Assembly: GCA_902762505.1 (NCBI GenBank)
Contig: CACWOQ010000007.1
Span: 1-64,000 of the forward strand
Direction of reading: 5' to 3'
Length of the DNA: 64,000 bases
Source of the DNA: an uncultured Ruminococcus sp.
GTDB lineage: Bacteria; Bacillota; Clostridia; Oscillospirales; CAG-272
Shown: piece after piece, positions 55,556 to 63,715 of the stretch
Layout: each line of letters begins with the position of its first letter
Numbering within the stretch: the first letter of the stretch is position 1
Translations under genes and position numbers: made by a program
Notes under the pieces: generated by a model
The model's input: the letters and a program-made list of their open reading frames with translations, nothing else
The model's database searches: none
What the model was told of the DNA's origin: nothing

Positions 55556-55583
55556 AAAAAAGCACGCTTTCGCGTGCTTTTTT
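55556..55583. terminator. Bidirectional intrinsic terminator
   Basis: Stem AAAAAAGCACGC with GCGTGCTTTTTT across a TTTC loop (55556-55567 with 55572-55583). It ends immediately at the tRNA-like sequence that follows. Confidence 0.85.
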
Positions 55584-55605
55584 GGCGGAGAAGGAGAGAT
55601 TCGAA
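55583..55605 (-). other. tRNA 3'-end-like sequence, possible attachment site
   Basis: On the minus strand the 23 nt begin with the T-loop TTCGAAT, continue CTCTC and end CTTCTCCGCCA with an encoded CCA. This matches the 3' third of a tRNA, most like a serine tRNA whose acceptor would start GGAGAAG. The rest of the tRNA is absent: the sequence 5' of the T-loop cannot form the T-stem. Such 3'-end duplicates are typical attachment sites left by integrases. No integrase is in the window. Confidence 0.5.
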
Positions 55606-55725: not shown

Positions 55726-56769
55726 TCACCTTTTTATCAAACCGTACCGGGCGAGAACAAGCTCGGTTATATATTTGCCTCTGACCTTCATTCCGAGCCT
55801 TGATATGACGTCCGATACAAGCGTTTCGTCAAGCGACGGAATATATTTTCTGTATTCCGGATAAGCGTCCGTAAGCTCGTTGAACAGCTTTATAAGCAGG
55901 TCGCTCTTCTTCGGTAACGAAGGGTATCCGCGCGCTATCAGCGCCATGTTGTTGTCGTAATTCGGAGCAAGTCCGAGCAGCTCTCCGGTCTTTGTGTCAC
56001 GCATAAGTCCGAAATTGTTCGTGTGTCTGTCCGGGTTCGCGGTGACCGTGTCCATAAATATAAGTCTTATATAATCGGGTATCGCCGACGGGCAAATCAT
56101 ACGCAGCGCTTCGACTACGGAAACATAATCCTCGTCGTCTCCCATAAACGACGACGCCGGCTCGAAATTCACGCTTGCGCCGTTTGTGAAATCAAGCGAT
56201 TTTATACATCCGTTTCCGCGCTCGTACAGCGCCATATTCATTCCGAGAGCGCGTCCGAGCTCGCTTATGAACAGCTCAGAGAACATCTCGTCGTGACTCG
56301 CGCGCTTGTAAAGCCACCATTTTCCGTCGCGCAGCTTCCAGCATTTTTCGAAGCTTCCGGTGTTCGTAAGCTCCGGCGTTTTGCTGCGCCCGCTCGACGC
56401 CGCTCTGTTAAAGCTGTTGTAAGTGCCTTTAAGCGCAAGGGATGAGAAATAGTCGTCGGAGAAGTCAATATCGCCGTACGTCAGAGCCGAGCCGATATCG
56501 CGTATCCAGTAGTTGTCAGTTATCGTTGCCGCGTTCACGTGGACGACGGTCGAAATGTCGTCCTTTTCCGTCAGCCGCAGAGCCTTCTTCAGTAACCGGG
56601 AGTTGGCGCGGTGACTGTCAATCGCCCGGGATTTCAGCCACAGGTCGGCGTTTGACAAGCGCTTCAGAAAAAGAGGGAGCAGGGCTTCATTGCAAACGGT
56701 GAGAGCTCCGTTATTCCACACGGCGACAACGGTATCGCCGCTCAGTATCTCATAATTATGTTTATCCAC
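55726..56769 (-). CDS. HipA-like serine/threonine kinase, no HipB partner
   Basis: A 347-residue protein resembling the HipA C-terminal kinase lobe. Visible are ITDNYWIRDIGS, an ATP-binding stretch WWLYKRASHDEMFSELFISEL, the catalytic loop TVTANPDRHTNNFGLMRD and LGLAPNYDNNMAL in place of DFG. The usual N-terminal HipA domain is reduced to about 80 residues. GTG start with GGGAGG at the right distance. No HipB-type helix-turn-helix gene is adjacent on either side, so it may be an orphan kinase or belong to the surrounding island rather than a toxin-antitoxin pair. Confidence 0.85.
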   Translation of the reverse strand: MDKHNYEILSGDTVVAVWNNGALTVCNEALLPLFLKRLSNADLWLKSRAIDSHRANSRLLKKALRLTEKDDISTVVHVNAATITDNYWIRDIGSALTYGDIDFSDDYFSSLALKGTYNSFNRAASSGRSKTPELTNTGSFEKCWKLRDGKWWLYKRASHDEMFSELFISELGRALGMNMALYERGNGCIKSLDFTNGASVNFEPASSFMGDDEDYVSVVEALRMICPSAIPDYIRLIFMDTVTANPDRHTNNFGLMRDTKTGELLGLAPNYDNNMALIARGYPSLPKKSDLLIKLFNELTDAYPEYRKYIPSLDETLVSDVISRLGMKVRGKYITELVLARYGLIKR

Positions 56770-56880
56770 AACAACGCCTCCCTTCTTGTGTTTTAATTAT
56801 ACTATCATATTTTTCAACAAAAGTCAAGCGAAATTTATCCGACCGTAAAAATCGGAATTTCTGTCATAATAAAAACAAGG

Positions 56881-57063
56881 CGGGGACAGCCGGGCTCCGG
56901 CGGCATGTGCGCGTTTCGTCCCTTTCGCGCCGTGCCGGCCGTTATTGCGTTTCGTCCCTTTCGCGATAATCCGGCAGCCCGCCCCGCTGATATAAAATAC
57001 AGCCCGGCGATTACGGCGGGCTGCTTTTTGTGTCTGTGTCGCGGCAGAGAGCTTGTATTACAG
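56881..57063 (+). repeat. 185-bp direct repeat, left copy
   Basis: Nearly identical to 57793-57978. Each copy contains two 19-mers GCGTTTCGTCCCTTTCGCG (56911-56929, 56947-56965), then a terminator-type hairpin and the last codons of the gene (here pseudogene) that reads leftward. The repeat thus covers the 3' end and downstream region of a duplicated gene. The stretch 56770-56880 left of it shows only a -10-like TATAAT for the HipA gene. Confidence 0.85.
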
Positions 57064-57275
57064 ACGATTGGTTTTCCTCTCCGGGTTTTTACTGTAAAGA
57101 TTCCGAAAGGACTTGATTAGTTTTCACATTGCATCGGATGATGTGTTAAACAAACTCATCGCATCGTCGAGCGTTATTTCATCCGTCACAATCATACTAT
57201 AAATGCTAGTAAGCTCTATGCATGAAGTTTCTTTGCTCTATCTACGGATACGTAGATATCGTAGCACTTCCGCTC
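57058..57275 (-). pseudogene. Degenerate C-terminal copy of the 57973 gene
   Basis: Read leftward it still gives SIYSMIVTDEITLDDAMSLF and KLIKSFRNLYSKNPE, matching SIYSMLVTDEITLDEAAKIL and ELIKSFRGLYSKDPY of the intact gene at 57973. It contains at least two in-frame stops, a frameshift, and lacks the first two thirds. Together with the 185-bp repeat it shows a tandem duplication followed by decay, with the zinc-ribbon gene now in the middle. Confidence 0.85.
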
Positions 57276-57567
57276 ATACCAATAGATTTAAATCAGGAAA
57301 CGAGAAAGGGGTTTTGCAATACTTGCATATTACTGCTTCAACACCTGTATTCACAGTGTTTTTCGCGTTGCAGTATGGGCAAATTACTTCTTTAGTCTCG
57401 ATATTTCTTGTGAATGAATTCAATCTGTATATCTTTTCTTTAGGTGACAATCTGGTGTTACAAAACACACACTCTTTTAATGAACTGCTAAACCGAGCGA
57501 CATTTACACCGTTGCAACTTTTGCATATATAAAGATAATTCGCCTCTGGTTCGTAATTATTCTGCAT
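57274..57567 (-). CDS. Small zinc-ribbon protein
   Basis: A 97-residue protein with four C-x2-C pairs: CKSC, CVFC, CPYC and CKYC, forming two zinc ribbons joined by SPKEKIYRLNSFTRN. No catalytic domain. It starts with a good GGAGG ribosome-binding site and has its own promoter. Zinc ribbons of this sort bind nucleic acid or mediate protein contacts. Its AT-rich composition and position between duplicated halves suggest later insertion. Confidence 0.7.
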   Translation of the reverse strand: MQNNYEPEANYLYICKSCNGVNVARFSSSLKECVFCNTRLSPKEKIYRLNSFTRNIETKEVICPYCNAKNTVNTGVEAVICKYCKTPFSFPDLNLLV

Positions 57568-57792: not shown

Positions 57793-57978
57793 CGGGGACA
57801 GCCGGGCTCCGGCGGCGTGTGCGCGTTTCGTCCCTTTCGCGCCGTGCCGGCCGTTATTGCGTTTCGTCCCTTTTGCGATAATCCGGCAGCCCGCCCCGCT
57901 GATATAAAAATACAGCCCGTCGATTACGGCGGGCTGCTTTTTGTGTCTGTGTCGCGGCATAGAGCTTGTGTGTTACAG
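57793..57978 (+). repeat. 185-bp direct repeat, right copy
   Basis: Partner of 56881-57063 with the same internal 19-mers (57823-57841 and, with one change, 57859-57877) and the same hairpin. It joins the intact gene at 57973. Confidence 0.85.
57905..57936 (-). terminator. Terminator of the ClpX-like operon
   Basis: On the minus strand CAGCCCGCCG pairs with CGACGGGCTG (arms 57927-57936 and 57913-57922, one G-U pair), followed by TATTTTTAT. It lies 37 bp after the 57973 stop. Confidence 0.7.
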
Positions 57979-58566
57979 CTGTTTTATCTGTTTATACGGG
58001 TCCTTGCTGTACAGACCTCTGAACGACTTGATAAGCTCTCTTACGGTTTCCGGGGTTGTGTAAAGAATTTTCGCCGCTTCGTCGAGCGTTATCTCGTCCG
58101 TCACGAGCATGCTGTATATGGTTGCGAGCTCCATACAGGATACCTCTTTTGCGTGACCGGCGGAAATGCGTATGTCACAGCACCTCCGCATAATCCCGAA
58201 TGAGTTTGACAGAATCGATTGAATGATGTTTTCTATCGTATCGATATCTTTCCCGATAAAGACGTCGGCTATGACGTCCGATATGAGGTCCAGGATATGA
58301 TTGGCGACGGCGTTTGCGTACGCCCCTGCTTTCATGTCAGCGTACTGATAATCGCAAGTCTGCTGACATATATGTAGATTTACGTCGTAGTATATCTGCT
58401 CCTTGTATGTGGCGAGATACTCGCCGAGCGTCCTTGCAAAACGCTCCGCGTCTCCCCGCGCCTTCGCCCGTGCTGCGTCGGGCGTCACGCCCTTCTCCAG
58501 CAGCTGTTCAAGCCTCCGCAGCCTGAACCTCTCTTCCGCTTTCTTTACACTCCGATTCTTCTTCAT
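57973..58566 (-). CDS. Unrecognised helical partner protein of the ClpX-like ATPase
   Basis: A 197-residue protein. It has a basic N-terminal third (KKNRSVKKAEERFRLRRLEQ, then ARAKARGDAERFARTLGEYL), a helical middle with clustered cysteines (HICQQTCDYQY; RRCCDIRI), and a C-terminal helix-turn-helix-like part (VTDEITLDEAAKILYTTPETVRELIKSF). The start at 58566 has GGAGGAA; a longer in-frame reading is rejected. It overlaps the ClpX-like gene by 59 bp, in a different frame, so the two are surely co-expressed. Duplicated as a pseudogene at 57058. No family recognised; substrate adaptor or DNA-binding subunit are both open. Confidence 0.7.
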   Translation of the reverse strand: MKKNRSVKKAEERFRLRRLEQLLEKGVTPDAARAKARGDAERFARTLGEYLATYKEQIYYDVNLHICQQTCDYQYADMKAGAYANAVANHILDLISDVIADVFIGKDIDTIENIIQSILSNSFGIMRRCCDIRISAGHAKEVSCMELATIYSMLVTDEITLDEAAKILYTTPETVRELIKSFRGLYSKDPYKQIKQL

Positions 58567-59944
58567 CAGTGTGTTCCTCCTTTGTTTTTTGTTTTTTATC
58601 AGCACTTTCAAGAAGGCTGTATAAGACCCCTTCAAAGTATCTGTCAAATATGGTTTTCAGCCCTCTGGCGCCTATTCCCTCCGCGTAAGCCTCGGCGCAG
58701 AGCGTACGTACGAAGTTGTCCGGTATCTTCACGTTTTCTCCGAACACGGAAAGAGTCTTTTCGTATCCGGACAGAATATCGTCCTCAGCCGTTACAATCG
58801 CGTAAAGGTCGGAAACGGAGAGCGGACGGAGCCGGACTATCGTCGTAAATCTCCCGGCAAGTTCTTTTATCATCCCGTATCGGATTAAATCCGTATGGGA
58901 TATTTCGTCGGTATCCTCAATCATCCCGGACGGACTTAAAAAGCCGACCGGATTTTTCCTGTCGGTTTCCTCTATGCTCTTTATCCCGAAGGCGCCTCCG
59001 GCGATAAACAGTATGTTGTCCGTTTTAATCCGGTGCTTTCCGCGGGAGCGCAGGTCTATCGTTATCTCCTCACCTTCGATAAGAGTCAGAAGAGACGTCT
59101 GGTCCGCCGTCTTATATTCGTGCCCCTGGGAGCCGTTCGTAAATATGCACATCTTGTCTATCTCGTCAAGATACACGATTCCGCGCTCCGCCAAATCCAC
59201 GTCGTAATTTGCTTTTTCAAGCAGGTCGGCTATAACGTCTGACGCGTCGCGCCCCTTGTATCCCGACGCCGTGATTTTAGTCGTGTCGGCAATGACAAAG
59301 GGAACGTTCAATACCTTTGATATCACTCTGACCATCTCGGTCTTGCCGCATCCCGTGGGACCGGTCATAATGATATTGGATTTGCTCAATCCGAGCTCCG
59401 GCTGCTCAATACGCAATAAGTGTCTGATGACGCCGACAATCAGGGATTGCTTGGCTTCCTCCTGCCCGTATATGCTTTTATCAAGCGCAGCTTTCAGCCG
59501 TCCGTAAGTATCGACGATATCATGATTAAGACCGGGCTCGTATACGCGCAGGCTTTTGTCAGACCCGCACTTCAGCTCGACCGTGATAATCGGCTCCGCG
59601 CTCTGATACAGCTTTACAAACAGCTTACGGCCGTCCTCTCCGTTTATGTAATCCTTCAGGTCGTCCTCTTCGTCAAATTTGATTTCTTTGCTTACAGCGT
59701 CCGTGAAGTCGTCTTCCGCGGAAAGCCTGTACACGTCATTCAGCGTAAACCGCTTGCCGTATCCTCGGCATATCATCACCCAACCGGTGATGTATATCTG
59801 AAGACATAAAGTGTCGTCAACGGGCTCATCGGTTACGGATTCAAGCTCCGCGGAGATAAGCTTCCCGACCACAGCCGGCGTGTAAAAGCTGTTCACCAGT
59901 TCAAACAAAGGCGTCACAACCGCCTGTTTCAGATTTTCAAACAT
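58508..59944 (-). CDS. ClpX-like AAA+ ATPase with novel N-terminal domain
   Basis: A 478-residue AAA+ protein. Residues 150-450 match ClpX: Walker A GPTGCGKTE (195-203), Walker B VYLDEIDKM (257-265), sensor DNILFIAGGAFG, GMIKELAGRFTTIVRLRPL with the arginine finger, and sensor-2 GARGLKTIFDRYFE. VGF at 333-335 sits where ClpX carries its ClpP-docking IGF loop. The ClpX zinc-binding N-domain is absent, replaced by about 145 residues (KLISAELESVTDEP, YITGWVMICRGYGKRF) I do not recognise. The C-terminus is Glu/Lys-rich. No clpP is in the window. Probably an unfoldase of an accessory system. Confidence 0.82.
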   Translation of the reverse strand: MFENLKQAVVTPLFELVNSFYTPAVVGKLISAELESVTDEPVDDTLCLQIYITGWVMICRGYGKRFTLNDVYRLSAEDDFTDAVSKEIKFDEEDDLKDYINGEDGRKLFVKLYQSAEPIITVELKCGSDKSLRVYEPGLNHDIVDTYGRLKAALDKSIYGQEEAKQSLIVGVIRHLLRIEQPELGLSKSNIIMTGPTGCGKTEMVRVISKVLNVPFVIADTTKITASGYKGRDASDVIADLLEKANYDVDLAERGIVYLDEIDKMCIFTNGSQGHEYKTADQTSLLTLIEGEEITIDLRSRGKHRIKTDNILFIAGGAFGIKSIEETDRKNPVGFLSPSGMIEDTDEISHTDLIRYGMIKELAGRFTTIVRLRPLSVSDLYAIVTAEDDILSGYEKTLSVFGENVKIPDNFVRTLCAEAYAEGIGARGLKTIFDRYFEGVLYSLLESADKKQKTKEEHTDEEESECKESGREVQAAEA

Positions 59945-60008
59945 TCACCGTGTCTCCTTTTATCTTGCGTTCGGTATTATAATGACAGAACCGATACGCC
60001 GATAAAAA

Positions 60009-60055: not shown

Positions 60056-60493
60056 TTACAGTTCTTTACCCGCTTTCACATATTCGATGAACTCATTCAT
60101 TGTTTTGAAGTTTGCATATACCATGTTAACATCATAAAGAGCGCCATCGATTTCGAAAGCACAGGGACCAAACGTGAGATTTACGCTTTTTTCCTCAGAC
60201 GTTTCCCATACTTCAAAACTGGTCATGGCAAAATAGCGGTCAATCATACCGGATATGCAATCAGGTACGGTATACGTTTTTAAATATATTAGTATGACTT
60301 TATATTGTTCGGAAGTTGTGTGAAAGTAAAAATCGAATTCAGCGTCAGTAATCCCAACGGCCTCAAGACAGGCTTTTAATGTGTTTTCTCCATTTGCGAA
60401 CATATCGGCCGCTCGCTGTAACTTCTTTTCCAAGTCCCGTCTGCAATAGAGTTCGGCGTCGTCGATGCTTGCGATTCTTGATTGTGTATACAT
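60056..60493 (-). CDS. Uncharacterised protein, 145 residues
   Basis: Acidic cytoplasmic protein. The N-terminus MYTQSRIASIDDAELYCRRD and ENTLKACLEAVGITDAEF look helical; the second half has YFAMTSFEVWETSEEKSVN and FEIDGALYDVNMVYANFKT. No recognised domain, weak ribosome-binding site. It lies between the ClpX-like operon and hsdR on the opposite strand from hsdR. Confidence 0.55.
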   Translation of the reverse strand: MYTQSRIASIDDAELYCRRDLEKKLQRAADMFANGENTLKACLEAVGITDAEFDFYFHTTSEQYKVILIYLKTYTVPDCISGMIDRYFAMTSFEVWETSEEKSVNLTFGPCAFEIDGALYDVNMVYANFKTMNEFIEYVKAGKEL

Positions 60494-60749
60494 ATTTCTT
60501 ACCTGCCCGGTTCGGTCCGGAACGTCGTTGCGTTTTCCCTAAAAGTTATACCTACCGGGCACCCTTTGATTGTATTATGACAGAAATTTTCAGATTTCCG
60601 GGCAATCCTCGCAGGATTTACATATAATTCACAAATGCGGATTTCGACACCGGTTTCAGCAACTGATTCTTTCGTAAAGACGGTTGAGCAAGACCGGTAT
60701 TGTAGTTTGGTACTCTTAGTAAAAATACGCCAAAACACATATGCGCATC
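60494..60749. other. Intergenic stretch before hsdR
   Basis: No gene is seen. It contains no clear promoter for the leftward gene at 60493 and no tRNA or repeat that I recognise. The hsdR promoter starts at its right end (60750). Confidence 0.5.
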
Positions 60750-60817: not shown

Positions 60818-63715
60818 ATGTCTAAGGTGAAATCGGAATATGAAGTTGAAGAGCTATATATTGACAGATTGGATGAGATGGGATACGAATATGTATCCTT
60901 GAAGAATTATGACGACGTTTGCGCTAACTTCAGGGAACAGTTTTGCAAACTGAACGCAAAGGAACTGATTGCCGCTAAGGGAACCGCCGAACTTTCGGAT
61001 ACTGAATTTGACCGTATCATGATACGGTTGGATAATCACACAATATATGAGTCTGCCAGAATTCTTCGCGAGAAATGGGTTCTGGAGCTTGATAACGGGA
61101 AAACCATTTACGTCGAGTTCTTTACCGGAGACGAGACAAGAAACATATATCAGGTCACCCATCAGATAACGATGGACCCCGCGCACAAGGACGACGTTCT
61201 GTATAAGAACAGGTATGACGTGACAATTCTCATAAACGGGCTTCCGCTTGTACAGACAGAATTGAAACGTCCCGGAATTGAAATCAACGAGGCGATAAAT
61301 CAGATAAACCGCTACAGACGGTTTTCTTTCCGCGGACTTTTCCGATATATCCAGCTGTTTGTCGTTTCAAACTCTACCATGACAAAGTACTGCGCCAACA
61401 TAAACGAAAACGACCCGTTCGGACATAAACAGGATATTCTGAAATCTCTGACTTTCTTCTGGACTGACGAGAACAACGTCCGTGTAAACAAACTGATGGA
61501 CTTTACAAACGCTTTTCTGACTAAGTTCCATCTGACCGAGATGCTGAGCAAGTACTTTGTTATCAAAGACACTGAACCGGTCCTGCTGATAATGAGGCCT
61601 TATCAGGTTTATGCCGTAAAACGCGCATTTGACCGTATTATCATGGCAGATATGAACGGCTATGTTTTCCACACAACCGGCTCGGGCAAGACGCTGACCA
61701 GCTACAAGCTTGCCTCGCTGCTCCGCGACGACCGCCGGATTGACAAGGTGTTCTTCCTTATCGACCGGAGCGACCTTGACTACCAGACCGTTGACGAGTA
61801 CAACAGCTTTGAAGCCGGATGCGTCGACCAGACGGACAGTACGTACAATCTGGTAAAAGACCTTCAGGATACTTCAAAATCGCTGATTATCACGACGATT
61901 CAGAAGATGGCGACGGCGCTTCGTTCCGAGAAGTATGACGCTGTTATGGACGCGTTCAAACAGCAGAAATGCGTTTTCATTATTGATGAATGCCACCGTT
62001 CGCAGTTTGGAAAAATGCACGCTCAGATTTGCAAGCATTTTCAGAACTCCAACTATATCGGATTTACCGGAACACCCATATTTGCCGAGAACAAAGGTCC
62101 TCAGGGACAGACGACGGCGGATATTTTCCGCTCAGGAACGCTTGACCCGTGCATCCATAAGTATATGATTAAAGAGGCTATTGCCGACGGCAACGTGCTC
62201 CGCTTTTCCGTTGAGTATATGAGAAGCGTTTCCGTTACCGGCGTCCGGGATTCCCGGATTGACCCCAAGGCGCTTGATGACGCGGAATACTGCAGGCGCC
62301 ACAAGATTGACCTGGACGAGCTGTATCACTCCGACAAGCGGATTGCGGCCGTATCCAATGATATACTCGGACATCTGAGCCAGCATACCAGGCTTGAAAA
62401 CAACAGCGTCTATACCGCAATATTTGCAATTGACAAGATTGAAACGCTTGTGAAATACTACGAGTATATGAAGGCTCACAATCCGAACAATTACAAAATT
62501 GCCGCTATATTTACGTATCAGGCCAATCAGGATATGGAGGAAAGCCCGGACAAGCATGCCGCCGAGCAGCTGGAAGCCTGTATGAAGGATTACAACAAGA
62601 CTTTCGGAACCGATTATGACCTGAGCAAATTTGACGCCTACCGCAAAGATATATCCAAACGTATGAAGCAGAAAGACCTGCCGCAGGTAGATTTGCTTCT
62701 TGTCGTGAATATGTTCCTGACGGGCTTTGACAGCAAGCCGACGAACACACTGTTCCTTGATAAAAACCTGGTGTGGCATTCTCTGGTTCAGGCGTATAGC
62801 CGTACCAACCGCGTCGATAAGGTGACAAAGCAGTTCGGTCAAATCGTCACGTACCGCAACATAAAGAAGGCTCAGGACGACGCTCTGAAGCTCTATTCCG
62901 GAGACGGCGACCCGAATGCGTATCTTTTGCAGTCATATGATTACTACGTTGCCGAGTATTACAAGCAGGTTGAGGTACTGCGTTCCGTTACGCCAACGCC
63001 CGACGACGCCGGAAACCTTCAGTCTGAAGACGATATCAGAGCGTTTGTTGTTACGTTCAGAATGCTGGCGGGTATTCTCAGCACGCTGAAGACGTTTTCA
63101 AAGTTCGACTGGGCGGACCTGGCGCCGGCGCTTGACGAGGACGAGTACGCCGATTTCAAGTCATGGTACCTGTATTATTATGATAAACACGGAAAGAACA
63201 GCAAAGAATCCATTCTTGTTGACGTGGACTTCAATATCGAGCTTGTCAGAACCGATAAAATCAACGTGGTCTATATCCTTAACCTTTTGAAGGATATCAA
63301 CCGCAGAGACAAGGTGGAAATGGCAAAGTCAATCGACCTGATTCTGCGTGAGATTGAACGTTCGGACAACGAGAAGATGCGTTACAAACGTGATATTATG
63401 AAGACGTTCGTAACAGAGCGGTTCTTCGAGCTTGACCCGGACGCGGACATCATCGAGGCTTATAACGAGTATGAGCGTGAAATGCTGCAGGCCGATATAG
63501 AGTCGTTTGCGACGGAGAACGGTCTGAGCGACGAGCTTGTCTCACGAATCCTGCACCAGTATTTCATGGATACGAAGAGCGTAACGCGCGAATTCTTAAG
63601 GCAGACATTCCTTTCCGGCGGCGTTAAGGGTCTTTTGAAACAGACAGTTCTGATTGATAAGACGCTGGATTTTCTGACCGATTGTTACAATAAATTTACC
63701 GCCGAAGGCGAGTGA
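60818..63715 (+). CDS. hsdR: Type I restriction enzyme, R subunit
   Basis: A 965-residue DNA translocase-endonuclease. The N-terminal PD-(D/E)xK nuclease region has YDVTILINGLPLVQTELKRPG (D and E-x-K). The SF2 motor has FHTTGSGKTLTSYKLA (motif I), IIDECHRSQFGK (motif II, DECH), YIGFTGTP (motif III) and MFLTGFDSKPTN with AYSRTNRVDK (motifs V-VI). A C-terminal helical domain follows. The ATG at 60818 is fixed by AGGAGGAT seven bases earlier; the longer in-frame extension lacks such a site and would start before the promoter. Followed by hsdM after 13 bp. Confidence 0.95.
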   Translation: MSKVKSEYEVEELYIDRLDEMGYEYVSLKNYDDVCANFREQFCKLNAKELIAAKGTAELSDTEFDRIMIRLDNHTIYESARILREKWVLELDNGKTIYVEFFTGDETRNIYQVTHQITMDPAHKDDVLYKNRYDVTILINGLPLVQTELKRPGIEINEAINQINRYRRFSFRGLFRYIQLFVVSNSTMTKYCANINENDPFGHKQDILKSLTFFWTDENNVRVNKLMDFTNAFLTKFHLTEMLSKYFVIKDTEPVLLIMRPYQVYAVKRAFDRIIMADMNGYVFHTTGSGKTLTSYKLASLLRDDRRIDKVFFLIDRSDLDYQTVDEYNSFEAGCVDQTDSTYNLVKDLQDTSKSLIITTIQKMATALRSEKYDAVMDAFKQQKCVFIIDECHRSQFGKMHAQICKHFQNSNYIGFTGTPIFAENKGPQGQTTADIFRSGTLDPCIHKYMIKEAIADGNVLRFSVEYMRSVSVTGVRDSRIDPKALDDAEYCRRHKIDLDELYHSDKRIAAVSNDILGHLSQHTRLENNSVYTAIFAIDKIETLVKYYEYMKAHNPNNYKIAAIFTYQANQDMEESPDKHAAEQLEACMKDYNKTFGTDYDLSKFDAYRKDISKRMKQKDLPQVDLLLVVNMFLTGFDSKPTNTLFLDKNLVWHSLVQAYSRTNRVDKVTKQFGQIVTYRNIKKAQDDALKLYSGDGDPNAYLLQSYDYYVAEYYKQVEVLRSVTPTPDDAGNLQSEDDIRAFVVTFRMLAGILSTLKTFSKFDWADLAPALDEDEYADFKSWYLYYYDKHGKNSKESILVDVDFNIELVRTDKINVVYILNLLKDINRRDKVEMAKSIDLILREIERSDNEKMRYKRDIMKTFVTERFFELDPDADIIEAYNEYEREMLQADIESFATENGLSDELVSRILHQYFMDTKSVTREFLRQTFLSGGVKGLLKQTVLIDKTLDFLTDCYNKFTAEGE

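Follow-up and report, generated by a model that had tools for sequence, protein, structure and literature searches.

The known targets of host Clp unfoldases include plasmid initiators, transposases and regulators of islands. Plasmid initiators are activated by chaperone proteins and degraded by Clp proteases (PMC4980987, PMC7566177), and the excision genes of SaPI5 are under ClpX control (PMC6848492). ClpX homologues borne by phages and plasmids are also known (PMC7824862). Here we analyze a stretch of 64,000 nucleotides (hereafter the window) from an uncultured Ruminococcus sp., namely positions 1 to 64,000 of the forward strand of contig CACWOQ010000007.1 (C7; GenBank assembly GCA_902762505.1), in which a gene for a ClpX-like AAA+ protein overlaps a gene for a helical partner. 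The pair is carried by an integrative element inserted at tRNA-Ser(GCT), and it looks like part of the backbone of that element rather than a defence system. It resembles the SaPI5 and plasmid-initiator cases (PMC6848492, PMC4980987, PMC7566177) in that the targets of an unfoldase would be mobile-DNA regulators or initiators; in those cases, however, host Clp does the work, whereas this element would supply an unfoldase of its own. Because mobile ClpX homologues have been described already, the kind of protein is familiar, and the novelty lies in the N-domain and the partner. We found no account of such an unfoldase–partner pair in the open-access literature.

A ClpX-like unfoldase with a new N-domain

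The ClpX-like protein (478 amino acids) is encoded on the minus strand by an open reading frame (ORF) at 58508..59944. A ClpX/HslU-type AAA+ module spans residues ~147–447. This core matches NCBIfam PRK05342 (7e-67) with 226 bits, short of the curated equivalog cut-off of 359, and TIGR00382 with 189 bits, under the cut-off of 371; it also matches HslU (1e-38) and the ClpX chains in the PDB (about 1e-45). In an alignment with ClpX, Walker A (GPTGCGKT, residues 195–202), Walker B (LDEID, in residues 256–263), the arginine finger (KELAGR, R365) and sensor 2 (GARG, residues 425–428) are all intact. The tripeptide VGF (residues 333–335), which conforms to the [IVLM]GF pattern of ClpX, occupies the position of the ClpP-docking IGF and is also found in the host's own ClpX. 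By sequence, the protein is a member of the ClpX/HslU branch of AAA+ unfoldases.

Several features set it apart from ClpX. The pore-1 loop is GYKG (residues 228–231) in the window protein, and GYKG or GYRG across the two known copies of the protein, instead of GYVG; pore-2 is replaced, and the RKH region is shortened. There is no match to zf-C4_ClpX, against which the host ClpX scores 1.8e-11. Where ClpX carries the C4 zinc domain, this protein has a new N-domain, residues 1–147 (59504..59944, minus strand), for which neither Pfam nor the PDB gave a credible match and nothing was found among 72,556 plasmids, 50,697 phage records and 301 genomes sampled from the class. A single-sequence structure prediction of this domain was unusable, with a predicted local distance difference test (pLDDT) score of 35. 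The preliminary description of the locus, drawn from the nucleotide sequence alone, had already reported a ClpX-type core with an arginine finger and VGF, and a zinc domain replaced by unrecognised residues; both claims hold, and the N-domain matched no known ClpX variant in these searches. Given the missing zinc domain, the altered pore loops and the scores under the equivalog cut-off, the protein should not be filed as ClpX, although it may still work in the manner of ClpX.

On another contig the host carries a canonical tig-clpP-clpX operon of its own, and its genome thus encodes ClpP. Core identity between the ClpX-like protein and the host ClpX is 37%. In a tree of 117 sequences, the ClpX-like protein and its one relative (see below) form a long branch outside both cellular and phage ClpX, the exact sister of which is unsure because long branches meet there, as the tree program itself warned. 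The homologues of phages and large plasmids are likewise ClpX-type unfoldases on mobile DNA, and the RKH region is similarly shortened in the ClpX of the Paenibacillus plasmid pSC2 (L041) and in some viral copies. Nearly all of them, however, retain the zinc finger and GYVG, and none has this N-domain or this partner.

The overlapping partner

The partner gene (57973..58566, minus strand) encodes 197 amino acids, counted from an internal ATG that is matched by the start in the relative. It overlaps the ClpX-like gene by 59 bp (58508..58566, minus strand), such that the same nucleotides encode the acidic tail of the ClpX-like protein and the basic N-terminus of the partner. The positions of both ORFs (59944..58508 and 58566..57973) and their overlap agree with those first reported. 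Searches of Pfam, NCBIfam, PADLOC and further resources returned no significant family match. A single-sequence model is all-helical and of moderate confidence (pLDDT 71.5), and it has no fold match at E ≤ 0.001. The C-terminal helix-turn-helix noted in the preliminary description is here no more than a hint, as both matches fall below threshold (HTH_Mga, E 0.019; HTH_17, E 0.099).

The pair in a second genome

Among 12 genomes of the genus, the pair is present in one other (G001), in the same order and with an overlap of 62 bp. Amino acid identity between the two copies is 55% for the ClpX-like protein, 43% for its N-domain and 32% for the partner. For the ClpX-like gene, synonymous differences are near saturation (pS 0.68), which cannot be said of nonsynonymous differences (pN 0.30). 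In both genes nonsynonymous changes are rarer than synonymous ones, indicating that both proteins are maintained by purifying selection. This, together with the recurrence of order and overlap in a second genome, means that the association goes beyond chance. One caveat here is that the comparison rests on two elements (n = 2), both from draft genomes, and that the G001 contig of 14.4 kb is possibly partial.

No further member of the pair was found in 395 genomes of the family and 295 genomes of the order. As these searches yielded only the G001 copy, the pair is neither common nor a housekeeping locus, consistent with the separate tig-clpP-clpX operon. Viral contigs, searched with profiles of the N-domain, the partner, the Rep-like protein and the recombinases described below, contained no relatives, and a scan of viral contigs with the core motifs recovered ordinary phage ClpX only. 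Two AAA+ matches from a search of genome contigs proved irrelevant. We also considered weak, distant homologues of the partner within the family; the best of these, in G018, adjoins ordinary housekeeping genes, and we judged it to be a chance match.

An integrative element at tRNA-Ser(GCT)

The pair is carried by an integrative element inserted at a tRNA-Ser gene. A perfect copy of the 3′ end of tRNA-Ser(GCT), TGGCGGAGAAGGAGAGATTCGAA, lies at 55583..55605 (attL) and is repeated, with identity at 23 of 23 bp, at contig positions 83972–83994, beyond the window and within tRNA-Ser(GCT) itself. An integrase of the Phage_integrase family (contig 82583–83761) adjoins the tRNA gene. The DNA between the repeats (C7:55583–83994) amounts to 28.4 kb and has a G+C content of 45.5%, compared to 52.5–54.6% outside. 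In G009, the segments that flank the element are present but rearranged, and no clean empty site was seen. We recognised no relaxase or conjugation genes among the element proteins scanned, a set that leaves out some small ORFs, and the contig of the relative may be partial.

In its integrase beside a tRNA gene, its direct repeat of the tRNA 3′ end, its defence cargo and its lowered G+C content, the element is similar to known tRNA-integrated islands that bear defence genes. It differs from them in its backbone, which combines a plasmid-type tyrosine recombinase, a serine recombinase and an unassigned Rep-like protein with the unfoldase.

Genes common to both elements

To define what the two elements share, we compared all ORFs of at least 60 amino acids in the element with those of the 14.4-kb contig of G001. 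Exactly five genes are common to both: those for the ClpX-like protein, the partner, the Rep-like protein (46% identity), a second tyrosine recombinase (65%) and a serine recombinase (66%). Their relative orientations are preserved. The Rep-like gene occurs in only these same two genomes among 285 of the family. We take its product to be possibly replication-related from our own reading of the sequence, a label that no hidden Markov model (HMM) or plasmid match backs. The second tyrosine recombinase is of plasmid type, related to recombinases of small Flavonifractor and Streptococcus suis plasmids.

The remaining cargo is variable. The element is rich in defence genes, including a type I restriction-modification (RM) system, a DrmD-like helicase, a sacsin-like ATPase, Fic, a HEPN/nucleotidyltransferase pair and a HipA-like protein, and these differ between the two elements. 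The neighbourhood is thus as rich in defence genes as had been described, with the HipA-like and type I RM genes on either side of the pair. One could envision, as the preliminary description did, an anti-phage module: the unfoldase and an adaptor would detect infection or stress and enlist the ClpP of the host to degrade proteins of the phage or of the host itself. The company of so many defence genes and the patchy, mobile distribution of the pair would fit such a role. PADLOC, though, matches the ClpX-like protein as generic AAA+ only and the partner not at all, and the pair is common to both elements while every recognisable defence gene is different. We regard an anti-phage function as improbable. 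These data argue that the pair tracks the backbone of the mobile element and not its defence cargo. We thus find no support for the pair as a defence module of its own.

A second possibility is that the unfoldase alleviates restriction: during establishment of the element it would remove HsdR, whether from the element's own type I enzyme or from that of a new host. There is precedent in the degradation of translocating EcoKI HsdR by ClpXP during restriction alleviation (PMC4231737). The hsdR gene (60818..63715, plus strand, with hsdM and hsdS beyond it) starts ~0.9 kb from the ClpX-like gene, and the G001 element contains a gene for a Mom-family DNA-modification protein (L037:7373–8128; Pfam Mom, 2.3e-50). 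Mom has a known anti-restriction function in phages, providing a way around restriction. On the other side, the pair is kept on the 14.4-kb contig of G001, on which no type I RM gene is seen, and the host ClpX could already serve. A role in restriction alleviation therefore appears unlikely.

A sequence motif shared by the two elements

The motif TCTGTCATAAT (ATTATGACAGA on the opposite strand) occurs nine times in the 2.64-Mb genome, and six of these copies fall within the 28.4 kb of the element (binomial P about 1e-10, calculated after the pattern had been noticed). In G001, 8 of 10 copies are on the 14.4-kb contig (C101, L037). The majority are located upstream of a gene of the element and share its orientation, frequently within some tens of bases of the gene start. 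Such sites precede the ClpX-like gene and the Rep-like gene in each element, with one mismatch in the site before the ClpX-like gene. In the window, the copy with one mismatch is ATAATGACAGA (59979..59989, plus strand), immediately upstream of the ClpX-like gene, where it overlaps the likely promoter region. Exact copies of ATTATGACAGA lie upstream of the HipA-like gene (56860..56870, minus strand) and between an ORF of 145 amino acids and hsdR (60574..60584, plus strand). The motif might serve as a promoter, as an operator or as a site for a recombinase. Inverted repeats that flank the module, at 56856–56878 and 60566–60588, were considered as transposon ends and rejected, as they are copies of this element-wide motif. 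Three more copies of TCTGTCATAAT are clustered on contig C10 of G002.

Proposed function of the pair

We propose that the two genes encode a dedicated unfoldase and its partner, in the backbone of a rare, plasmid-like integrative element, and that they remodel a protein of the element or feed it to ClpP. To this proposal we would give about an even chance. The most likely role of the pair is to control the life cycle of the element that carries it, not to act directly against phages. The ClpX-like protein would form a hexameric, ATP-driven ring, and the choice of substrate would pass from the zinc domain and standard adaptors to the new N-domain and the helical partner. That substrate would most likely be a DNA-bound protein encoded by the element; candidates are one of the recombinases, the Rep-like protein and a regulator that works through the shared TCTGTCATAAT sites. 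An element protein is the likeliest candidate, since it is the recombinases and the Rep-like gene, rather than the defence genes, that accompany the pair. Remodelling of the substrate, or its delivery to host ClpP, would govern how the element replicates, is excised or is resolved. An adaptor role for the partner is plausible.

Proteolysis by way of host ClpP is plausible as well, given VGF, which is present in the copies of both the window and G001, within a stretch (VGFLSP) that is identical between them. Alternatively, the ring might act independently of ClpP and merely disassemble a complex, with the VGF loop a leftover. We give this idea little credence, as a mere leftover need not have stayed unchanged in two copies so diverged.

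Several points weigh against a dedicated unfoldase that acts on an element protein. Only two such elements are known, one of them on an incomplete contig, and the Rep-like label lacks HMM support. The substrate, the binding of the partner and the use of ClpP are all things that we infer from sequence. Furthermore, coupling to ClpP could be lost, because pore-1 is GYKG or GYRG and the pore-2/RKH region is shortened.

Other features of the element

The HipA-like protein is encoded at 55726..56769 on the minus strand (HipA_C, 2.3e-7, just above cut-off). In addition to the serine recombinase, second tyrosine recombinase, unassigned Rep-like gene, Fic and HEPN/nucleotidyltransferase pair, the element encodes an AAA_14/DUF4143 ATPase. 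At C7:68389–75427 (L039:1988–5428, L193:14390–17974), a Swt1-HEPN/DrmD-like helicase is followed directly by the sacsin/HSP90-like ATPase; these could possibly constitute a two-gene defence system. The ORF of 145 amino acids (60056–60493), which has an exact element motif before it, gave only weak, sub-threshold matches to Imm42 and AbiEi.

Downstream of the pair, the preliminary description had seen a duplication of the partner gene. What lies there (57067..57240, minus strand) is a decayed copy of the C-terminal third, ~58 codons long; since it contains in-frame stops, we reject a functional second partner gene. Directly before this fragment is a zinc-ribbon-like ORF of 97 amino acids (57274..57567, minus strand), with several CxxC pairs and matches below cut-off. 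After the fragment comes a non-coding repeat with a terminator-like stem (56881..57056), 97–98% identical to a second copy of 177 bp (57793..57969) downstream of the intact partner gene. Because the repeat copies are 97% identical while the adjacent partner sequence has decayed far more, the comparison suggests that recombination or conversion acted at this 177-bp repeat.

Implications

The two elements may represent an undescribed family of plasmid-like elements in which an unfoldase–adaptor pair, together with host ClpP, would switch between the integrated state and a replicating or excised one, with the TCTGTCATAAT sites as the regulon, although we lean somewhat against so broad a scheme. 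The locus illustrates how a gene may have the look of a defence-island member and yet be part of the backbone of a mobile element. If our proposal is correct, an element with its own diverged ClpX, a private N-domain and a partner would amount to Clp control in self-contained form, and how the exchange of an N-domain retargets the ClpX motor would become directly testable.
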